NCBI GenBank assembly: GCA_003248125.1
Contig: QJXZ01000177.1
Span: 1 to 56,501 of the forward strand
Direction: 5' to 3'
Length of the DNA stretch: 56,501 nt
From: Gammaproteobacteria bacterium
GTDB lineage: Bacteria; Pseudomonadota; Gammaproteobacteria; Pseudomonadales; Azotimanducaceae
The notes under the pieces are model-generated. The model did not search any database, was not told the origin of the DNA, and saw only the letters and a program-made list of their open reading frames with translations. Positions 1,144-19,963 of the stretch are shown here, in pieces. Both the position numbers and the translations under genes were made by a program. Positions within the stretch are counted from its first letter, which is position 1. Each line of letters starts with the position of its first letter.

Positions 1144-3825
1144 ATGTCGGAAGCCGAATCCACCTCACCAGCCTCGCAGGTCCGCTTCGCCGGTGCGCTG
1201 CCGGTTTCCCTCATGGAACTCGGCTGGCTCGCGTTGCTCGGTGCCGCCAGTGCTTTGCTCGGCACGGTGATCGAAGCCGATATTCGATGGCCGTTCGAAG
1301 CCGGCGTCGCCGTGGCCGCGGCGGTGGTCGCCGGAATTTGGGGCTACGCGGTAGTGGTTGCCACCGCGCTCGCGCTTGCTGCGCTGCTGTCCGGTTCACT
1401 CGCGCTGGTGGCCGGCGACGGTTTGCTACTCGTGGCGGCGGGCGGCCTTACATTGATGCTGCGCTCGAAGCTCCAACGTGCCGACGTGTGCAATACGCGG
1501 TTCATGACGTGGATGGCGACGACGATCGCCGTCGCTAGCGTTGCGACCGCACTCGTGACTCATTGGGGCAACCTGTTTGCCGTCGCTGTTACAGCGTTGA
1601 CCGGGTGCGCCGCCGCCGTACCGGTTGCCGCGGTGGTGGTGAGTGTTGCGGCTGGTCCCGCCCGCCAATCCCTCGAGCGAGCAGTCGTCGCCGTCGCATT
1701 CGTGGCCGTACCTAGCGCGATCGTACTGATTGGCCAACCCAGTACGAACGTTGCACTCGGTGCCGTAGTTGTCGTTGGGGCGGCGGCTATGTATTTCGCA
1801 GGCCGCGGCCGCGTGGTGGCCGCGTGGTCGAGTGTCGCGCTGGTGCTGGGCGCTGCCACCCTCACCTACTTGCCGGCGCACCTGCCGCAACTGCTTGTGT
1901 TGGTACTCGCGATCGCGACTACCGTCATACTGGTACACCGCGTCCGACAAGATCGACTAACGGCCAATCAGGCCGCCAATCAGCGTCTATTCGAAACGAT
2001 GATGCGGTTTCTGCCCGTGGGCATATTCCGGATCGATACCGTCGGCTCGCTGCGCTATGCCAACCCGACCTTCAAGACACTGACCGGGCTCGACTCGAGC
2101 GGCGGGTGGCTCGACGCCGTACTAGCAGAGGATCGTGCTCGAATCGAAGCAGCATGGCGAAGCTTCACGGCCGGTCATGCCGCGTTCGAGGAATCGTTTC
2201 GCGTCGCACCGCTCGGCAACGTCCGTTGGATCGAAGTACGGGTAACTCCAGAGTATCAGCGCGGCAACGTGGCGGGTTATATCGGCACGGTGACCGACAT
2301 CACTTCGCAGCACATAGCCGAGGAACGCCGTCTGCGCACGGAAGCACAGTCGCAAGCCGTGCTCGACAACGCGGTCGACGCCATCATCACCATCGACGCG
2401 CAAGGCATGATTCGGTCGTTCAACAAGGCGGCGCAACGCACCTTCGGATACGCCCCGGATGAGATCCTCGGTCGGAGTGTCAATCTGCTGATGCCGCAGC
2501 CCCACCGCGATCATCACGACCAATACATCCAAAATTACCTACGGACGGGCCAGGCCAAGATCATCGGCATCGGCCGCGAGTTGGAAGCGCGACTAAAGGA
2601 CGGCCGTGAGATACCCATCTATCTGGCGGTGAGTGAAGTAATGGTCGGCGAGCAACGACACTTCACCGGCGTCGTCCGCGACATCAGTAAGGAACGCGCG
2701 GCTGCCGAAGAGATTCGTCGTCAGCACGAGCAGCTGTCGGTGACCATCCAGAACGCACCGATGGGCATTGCCACCTATCGCTTCGGTAGCGCCTTCGAAG
2801 CTACCAACCGGGCGTTTCAACTCACCACCGGCTTCGACGAGGCTCAGCTGCGCAACCGCACTATGCTCGACCTCGTGCATCCCGACGACGCGGTCGAGCT
2901 CGAACGGCTCATGCAGCAAAGTGCGGCGGGATTGGTCGCGCAATTCTCGATGCGCGTGCGGTTGGTTCGCGCCGACCACTCCGTCGTGCACGTGGCCACC
3001 CACCACGCGGTCACACACGATGCCGAGGGCAATCCAGACCTCGTCATATTGCAGATGGAGGATCTCACCAACGAGATGCAGGCCATCGAAGCCGAGCGCG
3101 AGCATCGCGAGAAACTCACACACGTCGCTAGACTATCGACCCTTGGCGAAATGACTGCCGGCATTGCGCACGAGATCAACCAGCCGCTCACCGCCATCGC
3201 CATGTATGCACAGTCGGGCGTAAGGATGCTCGACTCGGGTAATCCCAACCCTGCACGCCTGCGCGAAGCGCTGGTCAAGCTGAACGCCCAATCCCTGCGC
3301 GCGGGCGCTGTGATCGATCGCATCCAGCGACTCGTTCGCAATCACGATAGTGTCCGGGAATACGTGGATCTCAATGACCTGGTGTACGAAATTCTGCGAC
3401 TTGCCGAGGGCGACGCGCGCATCAACGACATCGAAATCGAAACCGATCTTGCAGACGCCGTGCCTCCCGTGCGCGCCGATCCGATCCAGATCCAACAGGT
3501 GTTACTCAATCTAGTGCGCAACGGCATCGATGCCATGCGCAGCGTGAACTGCGCCCACGGCAACAAAATCGTCATCACAACGCGGGTTACGCCCGAAGGC
3601 GTGCATGTGGCGGTAGTTGATTCCGGTACCGGTGTCGCGCCGGAGTTCGCTGAGCAATTGTTCACTCCATTCGCGACCACCAAGGAATCGGGCATGGGTA
3701 TGGGCCTTTCCATTTGCCGCTCGATCATCGAGGATCATGGGGGCCGCATGGGGTACAGCAACAACGCAGACCATGGGGCCACGTTCTACTTCGGACTTCC
3801 TCGGGAGAGCCGCGACGATGACTGA
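1144..3825 (+). CDS. fixL: FixL-type haem-PAS oxygen-sensing histidine kinase
   Basis: An 893-residue membrane sensor kinase. The first ~270 residues are strongly hydrophobic with several membrane segments. Three PAS domains follow (about 280-395, 400-520, 530-650), then HisKA with H676 in AHEINQPL and an HATPase with LLNLVRNG, DSGTG and GMGMGLS. The second PAS matches the haem PAS of rhizobial FixL: H458 in HHDQYIQNY aligns with the proximal haem histidine (H200 in Bradyrhizobium), and R478 in IIGIGR lies at the same spacing as R220, the residue that couples ligand state to signalling. Known FixL kinases phosphorylate FixJ when oxygen falls. I chose ATG 1144; an in-frame ATG at 1024 begins 22 bp from tRNA-Val and adds a low-complexity leader. 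It overlaps fixJ by 8 bp. Confidence 0.9.
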   Translation: MSEAESTSPASQVRFAGALPVSLMELGWLALLGAASALLGTVIEADIRWPFEAGVAVAAAVVAGIWGYAVVVATALALAALLSGSLALVAGDGLLLVAAGGLTLMLRSKLQRADVCNTRFMTWMATTIAVASVATALVTHWGNLFAVAVTALTGCAAAVPVAAVVVSVAAGPARQSLERAVVAVAFVAVPSAIVLIGQPSTNVALGAVVVVGAAAMYFAGRGRVVAAWSSVALVLGAATLTYLPAHLPQLLVLVLAIATTVILVHRVRQDRLTANQAANQRLFETMMRFLPVGIFRIDTVGSLRYANPTFKTLTGLDSSGGWLDAVLAEDRARIEAAWRSFTAGHAAFEESFRVAPLGNVRWIEVRVTPEYQRGNVAGYIGTVTDITSQHIAEERRLRTEAQSQAVLDNAVDAIITIDAQGMIRSFNKAAQRTFGYAPDEILGRSVNLLMPQPHRDHHDQYIQNYLRTGQAKIIGIGRELEARLKDGREIPIYLAVSEVMVGEQRHFTGVVRDISKERAAAEEIRRQHEQLSVTIQNAPMGIATYRFGSAFEATNRAFQLTTGFDEAQLRNRTMLDLVHPDDAVELERLMQQSAAGLVAQFSMRVRLVRADHSVVHVATHHAVTHDAEGNPDLVILQMEDLTNEMQAIEAEREHREKLTHVARLSTLGEMTAGIAHEINQPLTAIAMYAQSGVRMLDSGNPNPARLREALVKLNAQSLRAGAVIDRIQRLVRNHDSVREYVDLNDLVYEILRLAEGDARINDIEIETDLADAVPPVRADPIQIQQVLLNLVRNGIDAMRSVNCAHGNKIVITTRVTPEGVHVAVVDSGTGVAPEFAEQLFTPFATTKESGMGMGLSICRSIIEDHGGRMGYSNNADHGATFYFGLPRESRDDD

Positions 3826-4450
3826 TGCCGCCACCGTACACGTGATCGACGACGACGAGGCCGTGCGCGACTCGATCAGCATGTTGCTCGACACCGCCGG
3901 TGTGGAGCACACGCTCTACCCCTCGGCCACCCATTTCTTGAGCGCATACGATGCCGCAGAGTCGTCGCCCATCGCCGGCTGCCTGGTGCTCGACATTCGC
4001 ATGCCGGGCATGACGGGGCTCGAGCTGCAGGACGTACTCAACGAGCGCGGCTCGCGGCTACCGATCATCTTCATCACCGGTCACGGCGACATCCCGATGG
4101 CGGTAGAAGCCATGCGGCGCGGCGCATTCGACTTCATCCGCAAGCCATTCGGTGACGAGGACCTGCTCGAGCGCATTCGCGAGGCACTCGAGCGCAATGC
4201 CTCGGACATCGACTCGATCGAGACTGCCAATCGCGTCCACGCCGCATTCGATACCCTATCACCGCGTGAGCGCGAAGTATTCGATCGGGTCGCCGACGGT
4301 CAAGCCAACAAATTCGTCGCCATCGAGCTCGGCATCAGCGAGCGCACCGTGGAGATTCACCGCGCGCAGGTGATGAAGAAGATGGGCGCCCGCACGTTGG
4401 CTCAACTGGTGCGCATGAAGATCCGCTTAGAAGGACTCGATGACGATTGA
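3818..4450 (+). CDS. fixJ: FixJ-type response regulator
   Basis: A 210-residue two-domain regulator. The receiver has the acidic cluster D11-D13, phospho-acceptor D59 (LVLDIRMPG) and conserved K109 (FIRKPFG). The C-terminal LuxR/FixJ helix-turn-helix spans about 145-205 (LSPREREVFDRVADG ... ISERTVEIHR). In known systems FixJ is phosphorylated by FixL and activates fixK, nif-related or cbb3-related promoters. The start overlaps the end of fixL (ATGACTGA), implying translational coupling. The neighbouring cco cluster is the obvious candidate regulon, but no FixK gene is in the window, so targets are inferred. Confidence 0.92.
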   Translation: MTDAATVHVIDDDEAVRDSISMLLDTAGVEHTLYPSATHFLSAYDAAESSPIAGCLVLDIRMPGMTGLELQDVLNERGSRLPIIFITGHGDIPMAVEAMRRGAFDFIRKPFGDEDLLERIREALERNASDIDSIETANRVHAAFDTLSPREREVFDRVADGQANKFVAIELGISERTVEIHRAQVMKKMGARTLAQLVRMKIRLEGLDDD

Positions 4451-4931
4451 GCACCTGGCGCTCGCGCGCCGGGTCGGTGAGCTCGCACGCAAGCACGGCG
4501 CTCGCATCGCCACCGCGGAGTCGTGCACCGGCGGCCTGATCGCCGCTACCTGTACCGCGATTCCCGAAAGCTCCGACTGGTTCGAGTGCGGGTTCGTCAC
4601 CTACCGGTGGTCGGCCAAAACTCGGTTACTGGGTGTGGCTGGCGAGCTGCTGGCACGGCATGGTGCCGTTAGTGAAGCCACCGTCACAGCCATGTTCGGC
4701 GGTGCGCTCGAGCGCTGCGACGCCTCCCACTGCGTGGCGGTCACCGGTCTCGCGGGCCCGTCCGGAGACGGCACAGCGACTCCGGTCGGTACGGTTTGGC
4801 TCGCGTGCGGCATGCGCGGCGGCGATCCAGTGGTCACCCACCTCGAGTTTGCGGGCGATCGCGACGCCGTGCGCACCGAAGCCGTACGCGCCGCGCTCGA
4901 GGGCTTGCTGAGTCTGCTGCAGAGCCCGTGA
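4440..4931 (+). CDS. pncC: PncC/CinA C-terminal-type nicotinamide-nucleotide amidase
   Basis: A 163-residue protein matching the stand-alone CinA C-terminal domain. It carries TAESCTGG near the N-terminus with S28 as the expected nucleophile, the FVTYRWSAKTRLLGV segment and GLAGPSG. PncC hydrolyses nicotinamide mononucleotide to nicotinate mononucleotide plus ammonia in the pyridine nucleotide cycle, in the cytoplasm. The length fits the single-domain form. Its ATG lies 11 bp inside fixJ, so it is likely co-translated with the two-component pair. Why an NMN amidase should be coupled to an oxygen sensor is not clear. Confidence 0.9.
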   Translation: MTIEHLALARRVGELARKHGARIATAESCTGGLIAATCTAIPESSDWFECGFVTYRWSAKTRLLGVAGELLARHGAVSEATVTAMFGGALERCDASHCVAVTGLAGPSGDGTATPVGTVWLACGMRGGDPVVTHLEFAGDRDAVRTEAVRAALEGLLSLLQSP

Positions 4932-4970
4932 ACGCGATGCGTGGCCAAGGCCGCTCCCACAGCTTGCGGT

Positions 4971-5414
4971 TCAGCCTTTCTCGGCGACCCGAACGGCTAG
5001 CACGTCACATTTCGCGCCATGCAGCACAGCGTTGGCCGTCGACCCGAGCAGCAGTCGCCAGCCATGGCGCCCGTGGCTGCCGAGCACGATCAGATCGACG
5101 CCTCGGTCTTCGGCCAGGCGCAGGATCTGTGTGGCCGCGTGACCCCGCTCGATGAACTGCAGCTTCTTGGCAATGCCGAACGGCTTCGTCTTTTCGCTCA
5201 TCTCCTGCTCGGCTCGCTTCAAGAGATCGGCCTCGAAGTTGTCGGGCAATGCGCCAATCGCCGGCTCCATGCCATAGTAAAAATAGGCGGGCTCCAACAC
5301 GTGCACGGCTGCCAGTTCGGCATCCCTGCCGGCACATGCCTTGGCCCGCTCGAGCACGGCATTGGTCTCGCCGGCCAGATCCAACGCAACCAATACCTTT
5401 CTATATTCAGTCAT
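4971..5414 (-). CDS. Universal stress protein, single UspA domain
   Basis: A 147-residue UspA-fold protein. It begins MTEYRKVLVALDL, the typical first strand, and ends with the ATP-binding signature G-x2-G-x9-G(S) in GSHGRHGWRLLLGS. Such proteins bind ATP and accumulate in the cytoplasm during starvation, hypoxia or oxidative stress. It converges with pncC (39 bp apart) and diverges from hsp20 across a 137-bp region. An earlier start is open in frame, but ATG 5414 gives the family-typical N-terminus and has GGAGG just upstream. One of three usp genes around the cco operon. Confidence 0.92.
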   Translation of the reverse strand: MTEYRKVLVALDLAGETNAVLERAKACAGRDAELAAVHVLEPAYFYYGMEPAIGALPDNFEADLLKRAEQEMSEKTKPFGIAKKLQFIERGHAATQILRLAEDRGVDLIVLGSHGRHGWRLLLGSTANAVLHGAKCDVLAVRVAEKG

Positions 5415-5504
5415 GGGATTCCTCCACGCGGACACTGATTCAAGCAGCACGGCTGCATTCTTGCACTGCGGGAAATCCGTAATGAAAACGGCTCTCGTTT
5501 GCGG

Positions 5505-5518
5505 ACAATCGTAATCAA
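5505..5518 (+). promoter_or_regulatory. Weak FNR/FixK-like half-site
   Basis: ACAATCGTAATCAA in the usp/hsp20 intergenic region has one perfect FNR/FixK half (ATCAA) at the right spacing from a degenerate left half (ACAAT versus TTGAT), 7 of 10 conserved positions. It lies 34-47 bp before the hsp20 start. This region is the largest gap upstream of the cco run. Without the full TTGAT-N4-ATCAA palindrome the call is speculative. Confidence 0.2.
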
Positions 5519-5551
5519 GGAAAGCCGAAGCCGCTGGCGGAGGATAGCGCA

Positions 5552-5986
5552 ATGGCCAACAGCCCACGTCCTTTCGATCTGTTGCAGGACTTCAATCGCG
5601 CCTACGGCAACCTGTTCCGCTCACCCGTGCTGCGCGGCGAACGAGACTTTTTCGGCGCCGGTGATTGGGTTCCGCCAGCAGACATCAAGGAAGAGAGCGC
5701 GTGCTATCTCATCACGATGGACGTACCCGGTGTGGCTGGTGACGACATCGACATCACCGTGCACGACGGCATGCTGACGATCCGCGGCAAACGCGAGACG
5801 GAATCCAAGAAGGAAGAGAACAACATGGTGCGCATCGAGCGATCATCCGGTCAGTTCGTGCGGCAATTCCAGCTCCCCAACGCGATCGACTGCGATGCCG
5901 TCGACGCCAACGTCAAAGCCGGAGTCCTGACGATCAAGCTACCGAAAGCGAGGGAATCACAACCCAAGCGAATCAAGGTACGCTAG
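5552..5986 (+). CDS. Small heat shock protein, Hsp20 family
   Basis: A 144-residue Hsp20/alpha-crystallin protein. The alpha-crystallin domain spans about 45-140, with MDVPGV near its start and the classic AGVLTIKLPK strand (VKAGVLTIKLPK) near the end. Small heat shock proteins form oligomers that hold unfolded proteins in the cytoplasm without ATP. A GGAGGA sequence lies 7 nt before ATG 5552. The gene opens a plus-strand run reaching to 14706, and the next gene, a usp, follows after about 30 bp. Its place at the head of a cbb3 oxidase operon suggests co-expression under respiratory stress. Confidence 0.95.
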   Translation: MANSPRPFDLLQDFNRAYGNLFRSPVLRGERDFFGAGDWVPPADIKEESACYLITMDVPGVAGDDIDITVHDGMLTIRGKRETESKKEENNMVRIERSSGQFVRQFQLPNAIDCDAVDANVKAGVLTIKLPKARESQPKRIKVR

Positions 5987-6017
5987 GCCACACCGAGCGA
6001 ACCAGCGAGAGGTGGGC

Positions 6018-6935
6018 GTGACAACACCTGCAGCGGGTGTACGAAGAGTTTTGGTCGCGAGCGACACGCGTGAGACATTGCTCGATGCGTTGGAGAAAGC
6101 TGCGACTATCGAGCACTACACCGGTGCCGCGATCGAAGCGGCGTTAGTCATCTACGATCCGATTGCCGAAGAGCCGGAAGGCCACTTCACGAGAGCCGAG
6201 ACGCGCCGGATCGTCGACAAGATCAAAAAGACCGAACTCGCCGATCTAGAGGCGCAGCTCGCGCCGTTCAAGAAGCGCATCGCCGATCTGACCGCCAGCA
6301 TTTTGTTCGAGCGCGACGTCGCCAAGGCGATTGCGACTGCGGCCGGCGCATTCAACGCAGATCTGATCTTGAAGCCGCTCACCCGCTCGGCACGAATCAC
6401 CGATCTTCTGCACGCGCCGGCCGACTGGCGGCTGATGCGCGACGCGCCCGCGCCGGTGCTGTTCACCAGGCATATGCCATGGCCGAAGTCGGTACGCGTG
6501 CTCGCCGCGCTCGACGCTTCCGACGCACGTCACGAAGGTCTCAACCGCGAAATCTTGCGACACGCCTACCTGCTCGCCCAAGTGCTGGGCGGCGAGATGC
6601 ACGTGGTCAGTTCGTACCCTTCCCTCGGTCAGCAAATGAGCGAGTATCAGGTCGCCGGCGACTTCGACGCCATCAAGCGCGACATGCGGGCGCGCCGTGA
6701 AGCCGGCATCACGACGCTGCTCGATGACTTGCACGTTACGGCTGCGGGTGTGCACGTGGTCGAGGGCAGGCCGCGACACGTCATTTCGGAGTTGGCAACG
6801 CGCATCGGTGCCGGCCTCACAGTCCTCGGCACGGCGGCGCGTCGCGGTATCAAGAAATTACTCATCGGCAACACTGCCGAAGACATAACAAGGGAACTCG
6901 CTACCGATCTTCTGACGGTGCGCACCCGAACCTAA
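6018..6935 (+). CDS. Tandem-domain universal stress protein (UspE-like)
   Basis: A 305-residue protein with two UspA-type folds. The first half starts [10 protein letters not shown] and has lost the glycine-rich ATP signature. The second half starts [11 protein letters not shown] and keeps a form of it ([20 protein letters not shown]). This layout resembles UspE, where the domains diverge in nucleotide binding. I prefer GTG 6018, with AGAGG 6 nt upstream, over GTG 6012. It sits between hsp20 and ccoN with gaps of about 31 bp on each side, so the three are probably transcribed together. Confidence 0.88.
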
Positions 6936-6966
6936 CGCCAAGAACCACAACGAGGAACTGCCATCG

Positions 6967-8415
6967 ATGTCGTCAGCACTCGATCACCCGGAGTACAACT
7001 ATTCGGTCGTGCGCCAGTTCGCGATCATGACCGTCGTTTGGGGCATCGTCGGTATGACGGTCGGCGTGCTGATCGCAGCCCAACTCGCATGGCCGGCGCT
7101 GAATTTCGACCTCCCATGGCTGTCCTACGGACGTTTGCGGCCGCTGCACACGAACGCCGTGATCTTTGCCTTCGGCGGATGCGCGCTGATGGCATCGGCT
7201 TTCTACGTAGTGCAACGCACGTGCCGGGTGCGGCTCATCTCCGACGGTCTCGCGGCATTCGTGTTCTGGGGATGGCAGCTCGTCATCGTGCTTGCGGCTG
7301 TCACGCTGCCACTTGGAATAACGTCAGCGAAGGAATATGCCGAGCTCGAATGGCCGATCGACATCCTCATCACAGTGGTGTGGGTCGCGTTCGCGGTGGT
7401 GTTCTTTGGCACGATCGCGAAGCGCACGATCAATCACATCTATGTCGCGAACTGGTTCTTCGGCGCACTCATCATCGGCGTCGCAGTGCTGCACATCTTC
7501 AATAGCCTGGCCCTGCCGGTGTCACTGACGAAGTCGTACTCGGTCTACGCAGGATCCATGGATGCCATGATGCAGTGGTGGTACGGCCACAACGCGGTCG
7601 GCTTTTTCTTGACGGCCGGCTTCCTCGGCATCATGTACTACTTCGTGCCCAAGCAGGCCGACCGTCCTGTGTACTCCTACCGGCTATCGATCGTGCACTT
7701 CTGGGCCTTGATTGCCATCTACGTGTGGGCGGGCCCGCACCACCTGCACTACAGCTCGTTGCCGGATTGGGCACAGAGCCTCGGCATGGTGATGTCGTTG
7801 GTGCTGCTCGCGCCGTCATGGGGCGGCATGATCAACGGCATCATGACCCTGTCGGGCGCATGGGACAAACTGCGCACCGACCCGATTCTGAAATTCCTGA
7901 TCGTGTCGCTCTCCTTCTACGGCATGTCGACCTTCGAAGGGCCGATGATGTCGATCAAGACCGTGAACGCGTTGTCGCACAATACGGACTGGACTGTCGG
8001 CCACGTTCACTCCGGTGCGCTCGGCTGGGTTGCGATGGTGAGCATCGGCGCGATGTACCACCTCATCCCGCTGCTGTTCGGCCGCAAGCAGGGTGAAATG
8101 TATTCGGTGCGCCTGATCAATCTGCACTTCTGGCTCGCGACGCTTGGTACCGTGTTGTACATCGCCTCGATGTGGGTGAATGGCTTGATGCAAGGCCTCA
8201 TGTGGCGTGCCACCAATGCCGACGGCACGCTTACCTACTCCTTCATCGAGTCGGTGGAAGCGAGCTATCCCGGCTACTACATCCGTGCACTCGGCGGCTC
8301 CATCTTCCTCGCGGGCATGCTGGTCATGGCCTACAACGTCTGGCGTACGACGACCGGCACGGAAACGCGCACTGAACCCGCTCCCGCCACACCGTTGGCA
8401 GTGGGGAGGGCCTAG
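6967..8415 (+). CDS. ccoN: cbb3-type cytochrome c oxidase subunit I
   Basis: A 482-residue polytopic protein, the catalytic haem-copper subunit of cbb3 oxidase. It reduces oxygen to water with high affinity and pumps protons in the inner membrane. Visible ligand histidines include HTNAVIF (low-spin haem b), YGHNAVGFF (CuB ligand), [11 protein letters not shown] and, near the C-terminus, [16 protein letters not shown] (haem ligands). Length and helix pattern fit CcoN. The GAGGA sequence lies 10 nt before ATG 6967. It heads the structural genes ccoNOQP. There is no full FNR/FixK box in the 31 bp before it, so the promoter may be further upstream. Confidence 0.98.
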
Positions 8416-8417
8416 TC

Positions 8418-9032
8418 GTGCAGAAGATCGAAACCAATCTCGCGTTTTTGATCGTACTGATACTCGTCGCAGTGAGCGTCGGCGGCATGATCGAGATCTT
8501 TCCGCTCGCGTTCGAAGGTGCGCGTACGCCAGCGATAGAAACGCTGAAGCCACTGTCGGCGCTGGAGGTAGAGGGTCGCGACGTTTACATCCGCGAAGGC
8601 TGCCATGTGTGTCATACGCAAATGGTGCGGCCGCTGCGCGCGGAGACCGAGCGCTACGGCCACTACTCGGTGGCCGGCGAAGACGTCTACGAGCACCCGT
8701 TCCTGTGGGGCAGCAAACGCACCGGACCCGATCTCGCGCGCGTCGGCGGTCGCTACAGCGATGACTGGCATCGCGCGCACCTGCGCGACCCGCGCAGCGT
8801 GGTCCCGCAATCGAACATGCCCAGCTACCCCTGGCTGTTCGACGCGGTACTCGATGGCGCCGTTACCGCCCGCAAGCTCGACGTGCTGCGCACGCTCGGC
8901 GTGCCCTACACCGATGCCGACATCGCCGGTGCATCCGACGCGGTCGCCGGTCATACCGAAAGCGAAGCCATCATCGCCTATCTGCAGGGCCTTGGTCTCG
9001 ACATGGCCGACTACGCAGGAGGTGCGCGATGA
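8418..9032 (+). CDS. ccoO: cbb3-type oxidase monohaem cytochrome c subunit II
   Basis: A 204-residue protein with one N-terminal membrane anchor (about residues 5-30) and a periplasmic cytochrome c domain. The single haem c motif CHVCH is followed by [10 protein letters not shown], characteristic of CcoO. It passes electrons from CcoP to the CcoN active site. The likely start is GTG 8418, 2 bp after the ccoN stop. The end overlaps ccoQ by 4 bp. Confidence 0.97.
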
Positions 9033-9172
9033 GTCTGCCGGTCATTGCCGTCGTGCTCGTCGCACTGGCGTTCACAGGCCTCGTCGTTTGGGTCGCGCTG
9101 CCACGCAACAAGGCGCGCCTCGAGGCACACGGTGCGATTCCGCTTCATGACGACGAGGAGGTACGACGATGA
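9029..9172 (+). CDS. ccoQ: cbb3 oxidase small subunit CcoQ/FixQ
   Basis: A 47-residue protein with one membrane helix (about 4-24, [20 protein letters not shown]) and a charged cytoplasmic tail ending HDDEEVRR. Size, topology and position between ccoO and ccoP identify it as CcoQ, which stabilises the CcoP association with the core. ATG overlaps the ccoO stop (ATGA) and its own TGA overlaps the ccoP ATG, so translation is coupled on both sides. Confidence 0.93.
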
Positions 9173-10047
9173 GCACGGGCTGGACCATATTCATCGTCGT
9201 CGGGGCGCTTGGTTCACTCGCAGCGATGTTGTGGCTGCTGTACGCCAATCGCACGAAGGCAGTCGAAGGCGAAACCATGGGGCACGACTTCGACGGCATC
9301 GAGGAATACGACAATCCGCTACCGATGTGGTGGGTGGGCTTGTTCATCGCCACCATCACCTTCGCGGTCGCTTATCTCGTCTACTACCCCGGCCTCGGCA
9401 GCTTCGCCGGCATCGGCGGCTGGACCTCCACCGAGGAGTGGCAGGCCGACGTGGAAGCCAAGGAACGTCAATTCGCGCCGCTGTACGCTCAGCTCGGCGC
9501 ACTGAGCGAAGCGCAGCTGCACGACAACCGCCAAGCACGACAAATGGGGCGGCGCCTCTACATCAACCACTGCAGCACCTGTCACGGCGTGGCCGCCCGC
9601 GGCGCATTCGGCTTCCCTGACCTGACCGACGACGAATGGCAGTGGGGGGCCGATTTCGAAACGGTAAAGATGACGATTCGCCAGGGCCGCAACGCGATGA
9701 TGACACCATGGGAGGCGGCGCTCGGCGGTAGCAGCGGCGTCTCGAACATGGCGCAGTACGTGTCGAGTCTTTCCGGTGCGCCGCACGACGCTGCCGCTGC
9801 GGCCAAGGCCGCGCCGCAGTTCCAGATGTTCTGTATTGCGTGCCATGGCCCCGAAGGTAAGGGCACCGCGCTGCTCGGTGCGCCGAATCTGACCAACGAC
9901 GTCTGGCTGTACGGTGGCAGTATCGAGCAGATCGAGTTCACGATCCGCCATGGCCGCAGCGGACAAATGCCCGCGTTTGGTGACCTGCTCGGTGAGGACA
10001 AGATTCACCTGATCGCGGGCTACGTGACGAGCCTGTCCAATCGATGA
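9169..10047 (+). CDS. ccoP: cbb3 oxidase dihaem cytochrome c subunit III
   Basis: A 292-residue protein with two N-terminal membrane segments (about 3-25 and 50-72) and two periplasmic cytochrome c domains. The haem c motifs are CSTCH (near 138) and CIACH (near 223), each followed by the usual G-rich loop and a distal methionine (MMTPWE, QMPAFG). CcoP accepts electrons from the bc1 complex or soluble cytochromes and hands them to CcoO. It overlaps ccoQ and ccoG by 4 bp each. Confidence 0.97.
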   Translation: MSTGWTIFIVVGALGSLAAMLWLLYANRTKAVEGETMGHDFDGIEEYDNPLPMWWVGLFIATITFAVAYLVYYPGLGSFAGIGGWTSTEEWQADVEAKERQFAPLYAQLGALSEAQLHDNRQARQMGRRLYINHCSTCHGVAARGAFGFPDLTDDEWQWGADFETVKMTIRQGRNAMMTPWEAALGGSSGVSNMAQYVSSLSGAPHDAAAAAKAAPQFQMFCIACHGPEGKGTALLGAPNLTNDVWLYGGSIEQIEFTIRHGRSGQMPAFGDLLGEDKIHLIAGYVTSLSNR

Positions 10048-11456
10048 ACGCCGATGCGTCGCAGATCATCGCGAGAGACGCCGCAACGCCGAACGAGGCG
10101 GCGGAAGTCGCGGGTTTCGCGCCCGTCGATTTGTACCAGCGTCGCGAGAAGATCTTCACGCGCCAAATCGAAGGCCGCTTTCAGCGTCTTCGGTTGTACT
10201 CGGGTTGGCCGCTCCTGCTCGGCTATTTCCTGGTGCCGTGGTTAGAGTGGGGTGACCGTCAAGCCGTACTGTTCGATCTACCGGCACGGCAATTTCACGT
10301 GCTCTTCGTCACGTTCTGGCCACAGGACTTCGTGTTGCTCGGAGCACTGCTCATCATCGCTGCGTTTGCACTGTTCACCGTGACCTCGGTCGTTGGCCGA
10401 ATCTGGTGCGGATACACCTGTCCGCAGACCGTGTGGACCGCCATCTACATGTGGATCGAACAAGTCGCGGAAGGCCCACGACATGCCCGCGTTCGGCTCG
10501 ATCGTGCACCGTGGGGATGGGAGAAGATCAGGAAGCGCGGACTCAAGCACGGCATGTGGCTCGGGTGGGCATTCTTCACCGGCTTCACGTTCGTTGGCTA
10601 TTTCACGCCTATTCGTGAATTGGTGACGTCATTGGTCACCTTCGAAGTAGGTACTTGGAGCGCGTTCTGGATCGCCTTTTTCACCGCCGCTACCTACTTC
10701 AATGCCGGTTGGCTGCGCGAGCAGGTATGCATCTACATGTGCCCGTACGCGCGTTTTCAATCCGCGATGTTCGACAAAGACACGCTCATCGTGTCTTACG
10801 ATACGGCCCGCGGCGAACCGCGCGGCCGCGGTCAATCCCGTGATGGCCTCGGCGATTGCATCGACTGCATGCTGTGCGTGCAGGTCTGCCCCACGGGCAT
10901 CGATATCCGCGACGGCCTGCAATACCAGTGCATCGGCTGTGCCCACTGTATCGACGCGTGTGCCGACATCATGACCAAGGTGGGCAAGCCGACTGGCCTC
11001 ATTCGCTACACGACGGAACACGAACTCGAAGGCGGTCGATCGCAGCTGCTGCGCGGGCGCGTGGTCGGCTACGGCATCGCGTTGCTGGTGATGTGCGGGG
11101 TGTTCGTCAACGTACTGCTGAACCGTGATCTGGTCGGTATCGACGTGCTACGCGAACGCGGTGAGCTCTATCGCGTCGAGGCCGCCACCGTGCGCAACGA
11201 CTACGCCCTCAAGCTGATCAACAAGGCGCAGTCGGCTACACGCCTCGCAATCGACGTGCAGGCGAGCGTGCCGGTCGAAGTGATAGGCGCCACCGATATC
11301 GAGATCGAAGGTGGCGAGGTGCTGAACGTGCCGATTAGTCTCGTGCTGCCTCGCGATGCGCTGACGGTGCCGTCGGTAGACGTTCGCTTCCGGATTTGCG
11401 ATGTCGCCGGTCACTGCAACGAAGAGATCAGCCGATTCTTGGGGCCCGTGCGATGA
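10044..11456 (+). CDS. ccoG: CcoG/RdxA ferredoxin-type copper-handling protein
   Basis: A 470-residue membrane protein with several helices and two 4Fe-4S motifs (CIDCMLCVQVCP and CIGCAHCIDACAD). A C-terminal Ig-like FixG accessory domain follows, ending DVRFRICDVAGHCNEE. CcoG is reported to reduce Cu(II) to Cu(I) for delivery to cbb3 oxidase. An N-terminal CGYTCPQTVW motif and CIYMCPYARFQ are also present, typical of the family. It overlaps ccoP (ATGA) and the next small gene. Confidence 0.96.
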   Translation: MNADASQIIARDAATPNEAAEVAGFAPVDLYQRREKIFTRQIEGRFQRLRLYSGWPLLLGYFLVPWLEWGDRQAVLFDLPARQFHVLFVTFWPQDFVLLGALLIIAAFALFTVTSVVGRIWCGYTCPQTVWTAIYMWIEQVAEGPRHARVRLDRAPWGWEKIRKRGLKHGMWLGWAFFTGFTFVGYFTPIRELVTSLVTFEVGTWSAFWIAFFTAATYFNAGWLREQVCIYMCPYARFQSAMFDKDTLIVSYDTARGEPRGRGQSRDGLGDCIDCMLCVQVCPTGIDIRDGLQYQCIGCAHCIDACADIMTKVGKPTGLIRYTTEHELEGGRSQLLRGRVVGYGIALLVMCGVFVNVLLNRDLVGIDVLRERGELYRVEAATVRNDYALKLINKAQSATRLAIDVQASVPVEVIGATDIEIEGGEVLNVPISLVLPRDALTVPSVDVRFRICDVAGHCNEEISRFLGPVR

Positions 11457-11647
11457 GCGGCAGACCCCACACCCATGCGCGCCCATGGTATCGGCAGCTC
11501 TGGCCGTGGATTCTCATTGCCATTCCACTGATTGGCGTGGTGCTTTCCACGATCACCGTGATGGTTGCGTTGCGGAGTGCCGACCAGGACGTACGCGACG
11601 ATATGCATGCACCGCTCGACAAGGCGAGTTGGCGGGCCACGCCATGA
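11453..11647 (+). CDS. ccoH: Short FixH/CcoH-like protein
   Basis: A 64-residue protein with a basic N-terminus, PWYRQLWPW, one membrane helix (about 17-40) and a short tail ending near DDMHAPLDKASWRATP. The start resembles FixH (PWYRQ...W, then helix, then ALRSADQDVRDD in place of the usual V.DDYY segment). Typical FixH proteins have a further periplasmic domain of about 100 residues that is absent here. Position between ccoG and ccoI, with 4-bp overlaps on both sides, supports the call. FixH/CcoH is needed for stable cbb3 assembly. Confidence 0.75.
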   Translation: MSGRPHTHARPWYRQLWPWILIAIPLIGVVLSTITVMVALRSADQDVRDDMHAPLDKASWRATP

Positions 11648-13920
11648 ATACGGTCGTCTCCGGGGTGAAGCCTGCACCTGTCGGCACGCGCCTTGGTCTG
11701 GAAGACGAGCGTTCGCTGGTGGATCTCGTTACACGCGAGGCATCCGATGGCCACCGCGAACTGACACTCGACGTGCCCGACATGCGTTGTGCGAGCTGCG
11801 CGGCCCGCATCGAACAGCACCTCTCGGCGCTGCGCGGGGTCGGTCGCGTGCGCATCAACCCCGCTCGCCAACAGGTGCTGCTCACGTACGATCCGGTGCG
11901 ACTTACGCTCAGCGCCATTACTGACGCGGTCACCGATGCCGGCTACACGCCGGTACCGACCACACGCACCAATGACGACCCCGAGCTCGCGGCCGAGCGC
12001 CGCACCCATCTGAAACGCCTAGGTGTAGCCGGCATCGGGATGATGCAAGTCATGATGTTCTCGATCGCCTTGTATGCCGGCGCCGGCCAGGACATGACAC
12101 CGTTCTACGAGTCGTTGATGCGCTGGGTTGCGCTCGCATTCACGACGCCGGTGCTGCTCTATTCGGCGGCGCCGTTCTTTCGCAATGCCCTGTCGTCAGC
12201 GGCCGGTTTGTTTCGGCCCCGCGGCGTTCGTCTAGTTGGGTTGACCATGGACGTGCCGGTGGCGCTCGCCTTAGCGATTGCCTACGGTGCAAGCGTGGTT
12301 GCAACCGTCTCGGGTGGTGACCACGTGTATTTCGACTCCGTCACGATGTTCACGTTTCTGCTGCTCACAGCCCGACTGCTGGAGCAAAGCACGCGGCTCA
12401 AGCTGGCGCGATACGACAATTGGCTTGCCATGCTGCCCGCGCACGTCGACCTCGAGCGCAATGACCACCCCGAGCGGTTGCCGGTGACCGCCATTCGACC
12501 CGGCGATCGTGTTCGTGTCGCAGCTGGCGCCCGTGTACCCATCGATGGTTGGATCATTGAAGGTGCATCGGACGTCGACGAGTCGCCACTGACGGGCGAG
12601 ACACGGCCGCTGCCACGCGGTGTCGGCGACCGCGTCTTTGCAGGTACGGTCAATACCAATCAAGCACTCGTGGTGGAAGCGAACACCAACATCGTCGATA
12701 CGCGCATGGCCGCGATACATCGGCTCGCGCAGCGCGCGACGTTCGATAAGCCGCCCACCGTGCAACTCGCAGACTCGATCGCGCGCTACTTCGTCCTCGG
12801 GGTCATCACACTCTCCCTCGTAACCTATCTCGCTTGGCAGTGGTTCGATCCCGGTAGTGCGCTCGCTGCGACCATCGCCGTTCTGGTCGTGTCGTGCCCC
12901 TGCGCGCTGTCGTTGGCGACGCCTGCCGCAATCACCGCAGCAGCGACCGCCCTTCGGCGCGCCGGATTCGTAGCAACGCGCGCGCACGTCATCGAGCGTC
13001 TCGCCAAGGTAACTCATGTGGTATTCGACAAGACCGGTACGCTGACGGGCGGCAAGCCGGAGTTGGTTGCCGTTGAACCCGTGGGCGCGCTGTCGGCGAA
13101 AGCGTGTGAGCGGATCGCCGTCGCGCTGGAGCAGCACACCGATCATCCCCTTTCGCAAGCATTCGCGGCCGCCGACGCACCGCTTGTAGCAAGCACCGTT
13201 CGCATTCACGACGGCCGAGGCATCACAGGTGTCATCGACGGGGTCGCCTACCGACTGGGTAGCGCCGAGTTTTGCCGAATCGCTCGTCCGGCCCGGCACC
13301 GTGATCACACCACGATCTACCTAGCCGAAGATTCGGGCGATCGCTGCATTCCACTGGCGGAATTCTCGATTCGACTGTGGTTGCGCGACGATGCCAATGC
13401 GACCCTCGCGGCGATACGCCGGCTCGGCATCAGCGCAGAGATCTTGTCCGGTGACAGCATGGCACCGACAGCAGAGATCAGCGTCGCGCTCGACGACCTG
13501 CCCTATGGTGCGGGCTGTTCGCCCGAGGCCAAGCTGGCTCACATTCAGGCACTCACCCGCAAAGGCGAAGCAGTCGCCATGGTCGGCGATGGCATCAACG
13601 ACGTACCCGGTCTCGCCGCAGCCACCGTGTCGATTGCGCCGGCCGACTCCACCGATCTCGCCAAGACGACGAGCGACGCCATCTTACTCGGCCGCGGCTT
13701 GGGCGCCATCGCGCGCGCCATCGAGGTCGCTCGCCGCACGCGTGCCATCGTCAAACAGAACGTGATGTGGGCCCTGATATACAACGTCGCGGCAATACCC
13801 CTCGCAGCAGCGGGACTCGTTCCACCGTGGCTCGCCGCAATCGGTATGTCGGCGAGCTCGCTCGGCGTCACACTGAATGCGATGCGGTTGACCCGGAACG
13901 AGGCGACGACATGGAAGTGA
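11644..13920 (+). CDS. ccoI: CcoI/FixI-type copper P1B-ATPase
   Basis: A 758-residue P-type ATPase. An HMA domain (MRCASC, about 45-110) is followed by membrane helices, the TGE actuator loop (SPLTGETRPLP), the metal-translocating CPC in SCPCALSLATP, phosphorylation motif DKTGT, HP in TDHPLS and GDGIND. CcoI exports copper for insertion into cbb3 oxidase. ATG 11644 overlaps the previous stop. Many CcoI proteins begin with a cysteine-rich CxHCGLP domain; here the N-terminus goes almost straight to the HMA domain, so that part is missing. The frame stays open upstream but runs through the ccoG and ccoH genes. Confidence 0.95.
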   Translation: MNTVVSGVKPAPVGTRLGLEDERSLVDLVTREASDGHRELTLDVPDMRCASCAARIEQHLSALRGVGRVRINPARQQVLLTYDPVRLTLSAITDAVTDAGYTPVPTTRTNDDPELAAERRTHLKRLGVAGIGMMQVMMFSIALYAGAGQDMTPFYESLMRWVALAFTTPVLLYSAAPFFRNALSSAAGLFRPRGVRLVGLTMDVPVALALAIAYGASVVATVSGGDHVYFDSVTMFTFLLLTARLLEQSTRLKLARYDNWLAMLPAHVDLERNDHPERLPVTAIRPGDRVRVAAGARVPIDGWIIEGASDVDESPLTGETRPLPRGVGDRVFAGTVNTNQALVVEANTNIVDTRMAAIHRLAQRATFDKPPTVQLADSIARYFVLGVITLSLVTYLAWQWFDPGSALAATIAVLVVSCPCALSLATPAAITAAATALRRAGFVATRAHVIERLAKVTHVVFDKTGTLTGGKPELVAVEPVGALSAKACERIAVALEQHTDHPLSQAFAAADAPLVASTVRIHDGRGITGVIDGVAYRLGSAEFCRIARPARHRDHTTIYLAEDSGDRCIPLAEFSIRLWLRDDANATLAAIRRLGISAEILSGDSMAPTAEISVALDDLPYGAGCSPEAKLAHIQALTRKGEAVAMVGDGINDVPGLAAATVSIAPADSTDLAKTTSDAILLGRGLGAIARAIEVARRTRAIVKQNVMWALIYNVAAIPLAAAGLVPPWLAAIGMSASSLGVTLNAMRLTRNEATTWK

Positions 13921-14096
13921 TCTTGCTGCTACTGCCCGTGTCGGTCGTCATCATCGCCATTGCAATAGCCGTGTTCGTGTGGGCAGTCGACAACGGGCAG
14001 TACGAAGACACCGATCGGCAAGGCGATGCGGCGCTGTTCGACGACCTCGGTCAGCCGCCATCACGCAGCAACGAAACCCAGCAACCTCGAGCCTAA
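13911..14096 (+). CDS. ccoS: cbb3 oxidase maturation protein CcoS
   Basis: A 61-residue protein with one membrane helix (about 4-24) followed by WAVDNGQYEDTDRQGDAALFDD, the pattern of CcoS (WAV..GQ.DD......L.DD). CcoS is required for cofactor insertion into cbb3 oxidase. It starts inside the end of ccoI (10-bp overlap) and completes a ccoNOQP-GHIS order. The tail is rich in Gln and Asn and poorly conserved. Confidence 0.92.
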   Translation: MEVILLLLPVSVVIIAIAIAVFVWAVDNGQYEDTDRQGDAALFDDLGQPPSRSNETQQPRA

Positions 14097-14109
14097 ACGG
14101 AGCACTCCC

Positions 14110-14706
14110 GTGAACTCACTCGACATCCTGTTTCGCCCTATCCACGCCTGGCGCAACATTGCGGAGACCAGCGGTTCGCTGGTCGGCCGCTTACTCACGC
14201 ACACCGTGCCCTGGGCGCTCGTGCCCGCGCTGTGCTGGTACTACGGCATCACGACGGTCGGCTGGCAAATTGGCGAGGAGCCGGTGCAGAAGATGACGGC
14301 CGACAGCGCGATCGTCATCTGCGCACTGTTCTATCTCGCGATGCTGGCGGGCGTGGTGTTCCTCGGTTACATGATTCACTGGATGGCCGAAACCTATGCG
14401 GCGGCGAATTCCACCGTCGAGCGCGGCGTCACGATCGTCACCTACACAGCCACTCCGTTCTTCGTTGTCGGTCTGCTCGGACTCTATCCTGCACTTTGGC
14501 TGGACATCAGCATCGGCGTCGTCGTTGCCTGCTATTGCATCTACCTGCTCTACATCGGCGTGCCAGTGGTGATGGACGTGCAGCCGGAACGCGGCTTCTT
14601 GTTCGCGAGCGCCGTGGTGGCCGTGGCACTGGTATCGATCGTCGGCCTGATGACCGCGACTGCGATTCTCTGGGGCCTCGGCGCGGAGCCGGTTTACACC
14701 TATTAA
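14110..14706 (+). CDS. Yip1-family inner membrane protein
   Basis: A 198-residue protein with about five hydrophobic segments. The N-terminal FRPIHAWRNIAE motif and spacing of helices match bacterial Yip1/DUF1282 membrane proteins, whose function is unknown. I chose GTG 14110 because GGAG (14099-14102) lies 7 nt upstream; earlier in-frame codons fall inside ccoS. It is the last gene of the plus-strand run and converges with a usp gene 14 bp away. Co-transcription with cco genes is likely but its role in respiration is not established. Confidence 0.8.
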   Translation: MNSLDILFRPIHAWRNIAETSGSLVGRLLTHTVPWALVPALCWYYGITTVGWQIGEEPVQKMTADSAIVICALFYLAMLAGVVFLGYMIHWMAETYAAANSTVERGVTIVTYTATPFFVVGLLGLYPALWLDISIGVVVACYCIYLLYIGVPVVMDVQPERGFLFASAVVAVALVSIVGLMTATAILWGLGAEPVYTY

Positions 14707-14720
14707 GTCAAGCCGACTCT

Positions 14721-15161
14721 TTAGGACACCCTCACCGTCAGAACGTCGCACGGAGCACCGTGCAGCACGCCGTTGGCGGTCGAACCGAGCAACAAGCCCA
14801 GACCGTGCCGACCATGCGTGCCAATGACGATGAGGTCAGCCTTCATGTCCGCGGCAGTCTGCCGAATCTCGTAGGCGGGGCTGCCACGGCCGACCTGGCA
14901 TCGAGCGGCGGGGATGCCGTACTTCTTGCCGTAGGCAACGAGCTTCTCGTTGGCTTGCCGCACCGCATCCTGTTCGATCATCGCGGCGTCGGCAGACAGC
15001 GCGGCAACGTCGAATCCGGCGTACACCTGATTGATTGGTTTCACCACCGTCAGAAGCGACAGTTCGGCTCCGTTTTGAGTGCCAGTCTCTTGCGCCTGCT
15101 TCAACACCTCGTCGGCTTCGTCGGTCAAGTCGATCGCCACCAGAATCTTCTTGTACGCCAT
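14721..15161 (-). CDS. Universal stress protein, single UspA domain
   Basis: A 146-residue UspA-type protein starting MAYKKILVAIDLTDEADEV and carrying GTHGRHGLGLLLGSTANGV, the complete G-x2-G-x9-G(S/T) ATP-binding motif. It resembles the usp at 4971-5414 closely in motif and length, so the two may be paralogues that bracket the cco operon on its outside, both on the minus strand. UspA proteins respond to starvation and low oxygen in many proteobacteria. Confidence 0.93.
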   Translation of the reverse strand: MAYKKILVAIDLTDEADEVLKQAQETGTQNGAELSLLTVVKPINQVYAGFDVAALSADAAMIEQDAVRQANEKLVAYGKKYGIPAARCQVGRGSPAYEIRQTAADMKADLIVIGTHGRHGLGLLLGSTANGVLHGAPCDVLTVRVS

Positions 15162-19086: not shown

Positions 19087-19129
19087 GCCGGCTCCTCCAC
19101 GAAGATGAGGCCACGCATGGGACGAGCGG

Positions 19130-19963
19130 TCAGCCGGTGCGGGCGGGCTCGATTCTGTCCCACACTGAGCGAAAGCCATCGTCGCGACCGAGCAACGCCT
19201 GGGCTGGACTCTGCTTGTCGATATGGCCCATCAGGTGTTTGTAGGTACCAAAACCGCACAACTCCGCCAACCGCGGTGAAAACCGCCGCACCATGTCGAG
19301 CGGAATGCCGAGTTGCTGGTTTTCCTGCTGGCGAATGAAGCCGGCACAGTAGTTCATGGCAATACCCACGCGACGCGCGCGCGATCGATTCGCGCCGCCG
19401 CCGTGCCAAAGGCTGCCATTCCAGATCAGTACGCTACCCTTGCGCATCTCCACGGCGACCGGGTCGTTCGACGACGAATCGACGCCGTAGACCGGTTTAT
19501 CGGCAAACCGATGACTTCCGGGCACCACCCGCGTCCCGCCGTTATCGGCAGTGAAATCGGTGACCGCCCACATCGAATTGCAGACCAGGGGCCCGTGTGG
19601 CCTTGGCAGACCGATCAACGTGTCGTCCGTGTGCAGCGGTTGCGCGGTTTCGCCGGGATCGATGGCGATCGACGACAGCGACGACACCAGGCAACCCGGA
19701 TCCAGCACCGACTCCACGATCGGTAGCACCGCTGCGTGTACGGGCACACGCTCGAATACGGGGTCACGGGCGAGCAGGTTGTAGATGCGCACCGTGCGAT
19801 GACCCTCGAAGGCGTTGTATCCAGGCAGGATGCGAAGGTCGGTTTCTAGGCGCTCGAGCGCATCACCGATAGCGTCGATCAGATCGGCTTCGATCGCGTC
19901 CTCGACGATGGTGTAGCCGTCGCGCTCGATTCGCGCCGTGTGCGCCGCGACGTCGAAGCGCAT
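19130..19963 (-). CDS. PhyH-family Fe(II)/2-oxoglutarate dioxygenase
   Basis: A 277-residue protein of the phytanoyl-CoA dioxygenase family. The iron ligands are visible as HTDD in PLHTDDTLIG (H and D) and the distal H in SLWHGGGANRSRARR, whose arginines would bind 2-oxoglutarate. The family hydroxylates very different substrates, so the substrate cannot be assigned. An alternative ATG lies about 12 codons upstream. The gene is divergent from the serine hydrolase at 20067 and runs into the hybrid kinase gene, 43 bp away. Confidence 0.85.
   Translation of the reverse strand: MRFDVAAHTARIERDGYTIVEDAIEADLIDAIGDALERLETDLRILPGYNAFEGHRTVRIYNLLARDPVFERVPVHAAVLPIVESVLDPGCLVSSLSSIAIDPGETAQPLHTDDTLIGLPRPHGPLVCNSMWAVTDFTADNGGTRVVPGSHRFADKPVYGVDSSSNDPVAVEMRKGSVLIWNGSLWHGGGANRSRARRVGIAMNYCAGFIRQQENQQLGIPLDMVRRFSPRLAELCGFGTYKHLMGHIDKQSPAQALLGRDDGFRSVWDRIEPARTG

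Follow-up and report, generated by a model that had tools for sequence, protein, structure and literature searches.

On a plasmid of the rhizobium Sinorhizobium numidicum (NZ_CP120372, locus L215), the genes of the oxygen-responsive pair FixL-FixJ (FixLJ) lie just upstream of the cbb3 oxidase genes ccoNOQP-GHIS, on the same strand, in the order fixL-fixJ-fixT-fixK-fixNOQP-fixGHIS. A FixK-like gene stands between FixLJ and cco, with a FixJ site before it and a FixK box at ccoN. Here we describe a related locus at positions 1144-14706 of a 56,501-nucleotide stretch of DNA (contig QJXZ01000177.1, assembly GCA_003248125.1) from a gammaproteobacterium of the family Azotimanducaceae; this whole stretch is referred to below as the window, and all coordinates are window positions unless another locus is named. 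FixLJ genes again lie upstream of ccoNOQP-GHIS on the same strand, and the FixJ-site sequence is of the same type as on the plasmid. Unlike on the plasmid, no fixK gene was found in the window and no FixK box before its oxidase operon, a FixJ-type box lies at the operon itself, and genes for universal stress proteins (usp) and a small heat-shock protein (hsp20) are built into the arrangement. FixJ probably activates this oxidase operon directly, bypassing FixK.

FixLJ systems have been described outside rhizobia, in the Burkholderia cepacia complex. B. dolosa FixLJ induces a fixK reporter at low oxygen (PMC5234846), and the low-oxygen-activated (lxa) locus of B. cenocepacia is rich in Usp proteins (PMC6127331); its products, six Usp proteins and one heat-shock protein, rise over chronic infection (PMC6127331, PMC5234846). 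In contrast to the window, Burkholderia has fixK, lxa and the genes for the FixLJ homologues under separate locus numbers, FixLJ acts on fixK, and the available parts of these papers describe no link to cbb3. The likeness to Rhodobacter sphaeroides is of a different kind: a usp gene (uspA) and ccoNOQP share one oxygen-controlled regulatory region there, but this region has FNR-type boxes bound by FnrL, not FixJ (PMC2908626). FixJ of Rhodopseudomonas palustris acts directly on a metabolic operon and not only on fixK; there, however, the effect is repression of nitrogenase by the unphosphorylated form and not the switching-on of an oxidase (PMC13327599). Titles and the beginnings of abstracts, drawn mostly from outside subscription journals, named no case of direct FixJ action at a cbb3 operon. 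The preliminary description of this DNA had proposed a compact FixLJ-cbb3 oxygen module outside nitrogen-fixing organisms. Its novelty has to be narrowed: FixLJ outside rhizobia is already known from B. dolosa, and FixLJ beside cco from the rhizobial plasmid, although a FixK-like gene lies between them there. The module itself gains support from linkage that recurs in relatives and from the predicted FixJ-type box at the operon. The FixLJ and cbb3 parts are known, and the proposed wiring is a new variation on them.

Results

The source genome comprises 4.24 Mb in 383 contigs (completeness 100, contamination 4.55), of which the window is contig G000:C270. Among plasmid records, the closest match of its 16S gene is to a gammaproteobacterium, Methylomagnum, at 88.4%, no more than a hint of affiliation; a 23S probe matched nothing in the stretch examined, where the contig ends. 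fixL (1144-3825, plus strand, in a reading frame open from 1024) encodes a putative membrane-type oxygen sensor kinase of 893 amino acids, and fixJ (3818-4450, plus strand), which overlaps the end of fixL, encodes a response regulator with a receiver and a LuxR-type helix-turn-helix (HTH) domain. They are followed by a cinA-like gene (4440-4931, plus strand; PF02464) and by usp1 (4971-5417, minus strand), which is divergent from hsp20 (5552-5986, plus strand). From hsp20 the plus strand continues with usp2 (6012-6935), encoding a double Usp-domain protein, and with ccoN-O-Q-P-G-H-I-S, the whole run from hsp20 to ccoS occupying 5552-14096. The oxidase cluster is complete, as the preliminary description had it, but it is not directly next to fixLJ, since cinA, usp1, hsp20 and usp2 intervene. 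hsp20 is separated from usp2 by 25 bp and usp2 from ccoN by 31 bp; hsp20-usp2-cco reads as one operon with hsp20 as its predicted first gene, and we infer a single transcript from hsp20 to ccoS. Given these short gaps, the oxidase promoter region is likely to be the usp1/hsp20 intergenic region (5418-5551). It contains a predicted FixJ box, CTGCGGGAAATCCGTA (5466-5481, plus strand), which is the best motif hit in the window at widths 15-18. The suggestion in the preliminary description that FixJ may act directly is strengthened by this box, which falls within the segment it had named for reporter fusions, and by the recurrence of the linkage in relatives.

The linkage was surveyed across the GTDB family of the window, in 120 genomes (FixL, E <= 1e-50; CcoN, E <= 1e-80); genomes and loci are identified below by G and L numbers. 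FixL matched in 22 genomes, including that of the window, and CcoN in 56. Among the 21 other FixL-bearing genomes, 10 carry fixLJ and ccoN no more than about 5 kb apart; these linked genomes represent six genera besides the window's own. fixL-fixJ is upstream of ccoN on the same strand in G183, G157, G224, G163, G154, G205, G149 and G188; fixLJ and ccoN are divergent and about 4.5 kb apart in G168, and in G133 two contig ends, one adjoining ccoN, apparently each hold part of fixJ. In the remaining FixL-bearing genomes ccoN was unlinked or not found (G148, G150, G158, G159, G176, G186 with both genes at contig ends, G213, G217 with CcoN about 440 kb from FixL on the same contig, G242, G246 and G254). 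Outside the family, 19 order-level FixL-like loci were covered, and CcoN was present in the fetched flanks of none of them, some of these flanks being short. Chance neighbourhood of fixLJ and cco was rejected on the strength of the recurrence within the family, though the linkage was not seen in order-level genomes outside it. Eight linked relatives out of ten have usp genes within the fetched stretch. In G163, the nearest relative, the genes up to the contig end read fixL-fixJ-receiver-cinA-usp1(minus)-usp2-ccoNOP, which is the gene order of the window without hsp20 and with an added receiver gene: cinA and usp1 occupy the same places, and usp2 again directly precedes ccoN.

The putative FixJ element was first seen by eye, as a GGAA-and-TACGGA-like element in ccoN upstream regions. 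A first matrix, trained on usp, fixL, ccoN and Crp-type promoters, reached a log-likelihood ratio of 134 at width 15, compared with 52-63 in five shuffles, and ranked the window site first at width 18 and fifth at width 15. A second training, on poorly trimmed regions rich in coding sequence, was abandoned after it converged on compositional patterns and missed the window site. The final matrix was derived from 27 regions upstream of relatives' usp genes only, with no ccoN promoters and no part of the window, against a second-order background. Its best window hit, at 5466-5481, was rank 1 of about 113,000 positions at widths 15-18 and rank 2 at width 14. When random segments from the same loci were used for training, no run of 25 brought the window site to rank 3 or gave p 1e-3; the likelihoods of these runs lay between 45 and 61, against 111 for the motif.

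For the comparison of promoters, 30 CcoN loci were taken from the 56 matching genomes: the window, 10 linked and 17 unlinked loci, and two that were dropped for having less than 150 bp of upstream sequence (G186, G180). Unlinked here means no FixL match on the same contig, so broken assemblies could hide a link. By the final matrix, linked ccoN promoters (10 genomes) outscored unlinked ones (15, leaving out G165 and G198), with p values of 4e-5 to 5e-4 over five widths; genus means gave the same direction (6 linked vs 9 unlinked, p 0.0008). Measured against each promoter's own dinucleotide shuffles, with all 17 unlinked loci included, the linked promoters again scored higher (p 1.4e-4), and six of ten linked promoters but none of the 17 unlinked ones beat all 40 of their shuffles. 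In G157, G224, G188, G168 and G183 the box immediately precedes ccoN, at a distance of 75 to 240 bp, and in each case it scores above all 40 shuffles. In G163 a strong site (17.0 bits) is found farther upstream, before usp2, and in G133 another (14.9 bits) just after fixJ. Hits of at least 14 bits numbered 36 in 302 kb of family FixL loci vs 20 in 676 kb of order-level loci, a density count that for the family takes in coding repeats and training regions.

The matrix also recovers rhizobial FixJ sites. The site before S. meliloti fixK is TAAGTAATTTCCCTTA, as given in PMC4999443. Applied to the 30.6-kb fix region of S. numidicum, the usp-trained matrix ranked two TAAGTAATTTCCCTTA sites first and second, at 20.0 bits vs 11.6 bits for the next hit. 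One of them precedes each of two genes that are annotated only as helix-turn-helix proteins but are FixK-like, their products scoring 188 and 182 bits on the FixK model. At ccoN of S. numidicum the FixK box is perfect and lies at -107, and a FixJ box is lacking (5.2 bits). The short FixJ-SELEX (systematic evolution of ligands by exponential enrichment) core, unlike the full fixK site, scores only 6-10 bits.

The preliminary description had reported no full TTGAT-N4-ATCAA box before ccoN; this holds, and even with up to two mismatches none precedes ccoN in the window, where the first two matches (7708 and 7945) lie inside the gene. Five full palindromes occur in the genome and none in the window, which rules out a full box before ccoN, and no FNR/FixK box was found before hsp20. 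Across the family we counted boxes with up to two mismatches in the 400 bp before ccoN, taking the expectation from shuffles. They precede none of the 11 linked ccoN genes (1.4 expected) and 13 of the 17 unlinked ones (2.9 expected), a difference with a Fisher p of 7e-5 (by genus, 0/7 vs 7/9, p 0.003). In contrast to ccoN of S. numidicum, the ccoN genes of G157, G224, G188, G168 and G183, and the window operon, have a FixJ-type box and no FNR/FixK box.

The window contig contains no match to a Crp/Fnr HTH or cNMP domain, in agreement with the earlier statement that no FixK/FNR gene lies in the window. Genome-wide, three Crp/Fnr HTH proteins score above the Pfam cut-off, all on other contigs. 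One is CRP (347 bits, cut-off 266). The protein on C289 matches no NCBIfam model. The third, on G000:C93 (L028:7089-7808; 239 amino acids), is an unusual Crp/Fnr-type protein that matches no curated model at cut-off (FixK 47 bits, cut-off 300; Fnr 47, cut-off 228; FnrL 64, cut-off 300); it lacks the four-cysteine cluster, and its recognition helix reads ETVSR, which we take to resemble that of FNR/FixK. C93 and C289 were considered as hidden FixK proteins, and neither resembles FixK by model. However, the Sinorhizobium FixK-like protein, at 188 bits, also falls below the cut-off of 300, and therefore the FixK cut-off alone decides nothing. The genome search for fixK that the preliminary description had called for thus gave three Crp/Fnr HTH proteins, none FixK-like by model, of which C93 keeps the ETVSR helix. 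No strong FixJ box was found before C93; the best site there (11.7 bits) lies inside the open reading frame (ORF) of a divergent neighbour.

FixL contains three PAS regions followed by HisKA and HATPase_c domains. Its second PAS region (searched segment 2326-2718, plus strand) aligns without gaps to solved FixL haem domains (E 3e-30), placing H458 (codon at 2515) and R478 (codon at 2575), numbered from the start at 1144, on the FixL ligand histidine and signalling arginine. Their spacing of 20 residues is that of FixL, in agreement with the haem-type PAS noted in the preliminary description. Both residues are kept in all 20 family loci that aligned among 21 tested (G159 counted twice), including G150, in which this region is otherwise poorly conserved; the one locus without a match was that of G148. 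An out-of-family FixL-like protein (G053) has tyrosine in place of the haem histidine. The nearest relative of FixL is G163:C275, with 51% identity over query residues 159-891; among named genomes FixL gave four relatives, all of them distant. On the NCBIfam model for rhizobial FixL, the window protein scores 339 bits and the cut-off is 850. As this model was built for the rhizobial protein, the missed cut-off excludes the rhizobial subtype and not an oxygen-sensing FixL-like kinase.

FixJ matches a solved FixJ structure over its full length (2e-48) and is 55-68% identical to the FixJ proteins of the linked relatives (G224 in two pieces). On the NCBIfam FixJ model it scores 244.2 bits over residues 1-203 of 210, which is 11 bits short of the cut-off (255), and for this reason we call the regulator FixJ-like. 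It is encoded with FixL, combines a receiver with a LuxR-type HTH domain, and has a predicted FixJ-type site nearby. On this evidence, kinase and regulator are FixL-like and FixJ-like, and haem binding is putative.

All eight oxidase genes are present and in order on the plus strand. ccoN (6967-8415; TIGR00780, 759 bits, cut-off 583), ccoO (8418-9032; TIGR00781, 262 bits, cut-off 201), ccoP (9169-10047; TIGR00782, 247 bits, cut-off 180), ccoG (10044-11456; TIGR02745, 507 bits, cut-off 317) and ccoS (13911-14096, with the start inferred from the reading frame and 13917-14093 scanned; TIGR00847, 34.9 bits, cut-off 28.4) encode products above their NCBIfam cut-offs. ccoQ (9029-9172) encodes 47 amino acids scoring 27.7 bits on FixQ, 1.3 bits below the Pfam cut-off of 29. 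ccoI (11644-13920) encodes a Cu-type P-ATPase. The product of ccoH (11453-11647) is a short form of 64 amino acids (FixH, 23.9 bits, cut-off 23). The gap between CcoG and CcoI is also short (about 160-220 bp) in the family relatives L168, L170, L171, L180 and L181 and about 700-1000 bp in most order-level relatives; the shortened CcoH may therefore be a family trait.

Discussion

We propose the following mechanism. The haem in the second PAS domain of FixL would bind oxygen, and when oxygen falls FixL would phosphorylate FixJ. Phosphorylated FixJ would then bind at 5466-5481 and activate hsp20-usp2-ccoNOQP-GHIS without a FixK step, and would probably also activate the divergent usp1. The high-affinity oxidase and the stress proteins would rise together. 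Direct control by FixJ is the most economical account of the locus.

Several observations weigh against it. The usp training set was picked after hits at usp genes had been seen, and the motif is contaminated by at least five training hits, of the CCACGGCAAGCACGG type, which are repeats within the coding sequence of usp genes. The window site scores 16.2 bits, below the best sites of the relatives (about 20 bits), and the exact box pattern has two matches in the genome, the same as a reversed control (2), the other match being inside an ORF of 458 amino acids. No motif site lies in the 250 bp before ccoN of the window, a segment that is usp2 coding sequence. The 250 bp before ccoN yield only 6-10 bits in half of the linked genomes (G163, G154, G133, G149 and G205), and G154, G205 and G149 have no site of at least 14 bits between fixJ and ccoN. 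No sigma-70-like promoter was found in 4300-7050. As to the FNR/FixK boxes, the zero count in linked genomes against 1.4 expected is not significant alone, and 11 of the 13 boxes before unlinked ccoN genes carry two mismatches. Finally, C93 is a possible middleman by its ETVSR helix, despite its 47 bits on the FixK model, and in an assembly of 383 contigs the absence of FixK is not proven.

Three other explanations can be considered. The linkage could exist without direct control, cco being constitutive or under another regulator, with FixJ acting only on usp and hsp20 and the gene order simply inherited. The weak motif before ccoN in five of ten linked genomes would fit this, as would the presence of CRP and two other Crp/Fnr-type proteins in the genome. 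We nevertheless consider it unlikely: ccoN closely follows usp2 in the window and in G163, with the FixJ box before the whole gene run; the five relatives with a box at 75 to 240 bp exceed all their shuffles; and FNR-type boxes are common before unlinked ccoN genes and absent before linked ones. We likewise give little credence to a classic cascade, in which FixJ would activate the unlinked C93 gene and its product would activate cco. The ETVSR helix, found in a protein without the four-cysteine pattern, speaks for such a role of C93, and a FixLJ-to-fixK step has a precedent in B. dolosa (PMC5234846). Against it, the FixK-model score of C93 is far from the 188 bits of the Sinorhizobium protein, although both are under 300, and its Fnr and FnrL scores are similarly low; there is no strong FixJ box upstream of its gene, and hsp20 and ccoN lack an upstream FNR/FixK box.

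Direct activation also has to be set against repression. FixJ could be mainly a repressor, its unphosphorylated form blocking the site at high oxygen, but we regard this as very improbable. The box lies about 70 bp before hsp20, and about 70 bp upstream is a common distance for an activator. In two papers FixLJ stimulates fixK and does not repress it (PMC5234846, PMC13327599), although unphosphorylated FixJ of R. palustris binds and represses nif promoters according to the latter (PMC13327599).

Whether the proposed direct activation extends to the family is a wider question, on which we are evenly divided: at the cbb3 operon and usp genes, FNR/FixK boxes may have given way to FixJ boxes, resulting in one-step control of respiration and dormancy-type stress genes with the FixK layer dropped. 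If this is true, the family would illustrate the gain or loss of the middle layer in an oxygen circuit of two layers. The linked promoters of the family would be a natural set from which to define the FixJ site, for which the published consensus sequences differ. The arrangement also suggests a simple low-oxygen switch made up of a single kinase, regulator and promoter.

Additional features

Six linked relatives out of ten (G163, G154, G157, G224, G205 and G188) have a stand-alone receiver gene in the interval from fixJ to ccoN, its identity having been checked by Pfam in G157. It is found at L168:10230-10640 and at the same place in L165, L166, L170, L173 and L181, and is missing in the window. 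The product could serve as a phosphate sink or as a modulator of FixLJ. In the unlinked genome G254, a sequence near-identical to the rhizobial FixJ site, TAAGGGAAATCACCTA (L178:1560-1575), lies upstream of fixL, which suggests autoregulation of fixL or control of a divergent usp gene. Plasmid pSES220 of Sphingobium yanoikuyae (L216) carries fixJ and a PAS-domain partner near usp, truncated haemoglobin and alternative oxidase genes, with no cco annotated in the stretch.

The cluster ends with a gene for a Yip1-domain membrane protein (14026-14706, plus strand; PF04893), which also follows cco in the linked genomes G157, G183, G149 and G188. A third universal stress protein is encoded at 14721-15161 on the minus strand. 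Three tRNA genes on the minus strand (688-1002) lie directly upstream of fixL. Beyond a Na/alanine symporter gene, the minus strand encodes a hybrid PAS histidine kinase with a receiver domain (16732-19179), a second sensor in the window.

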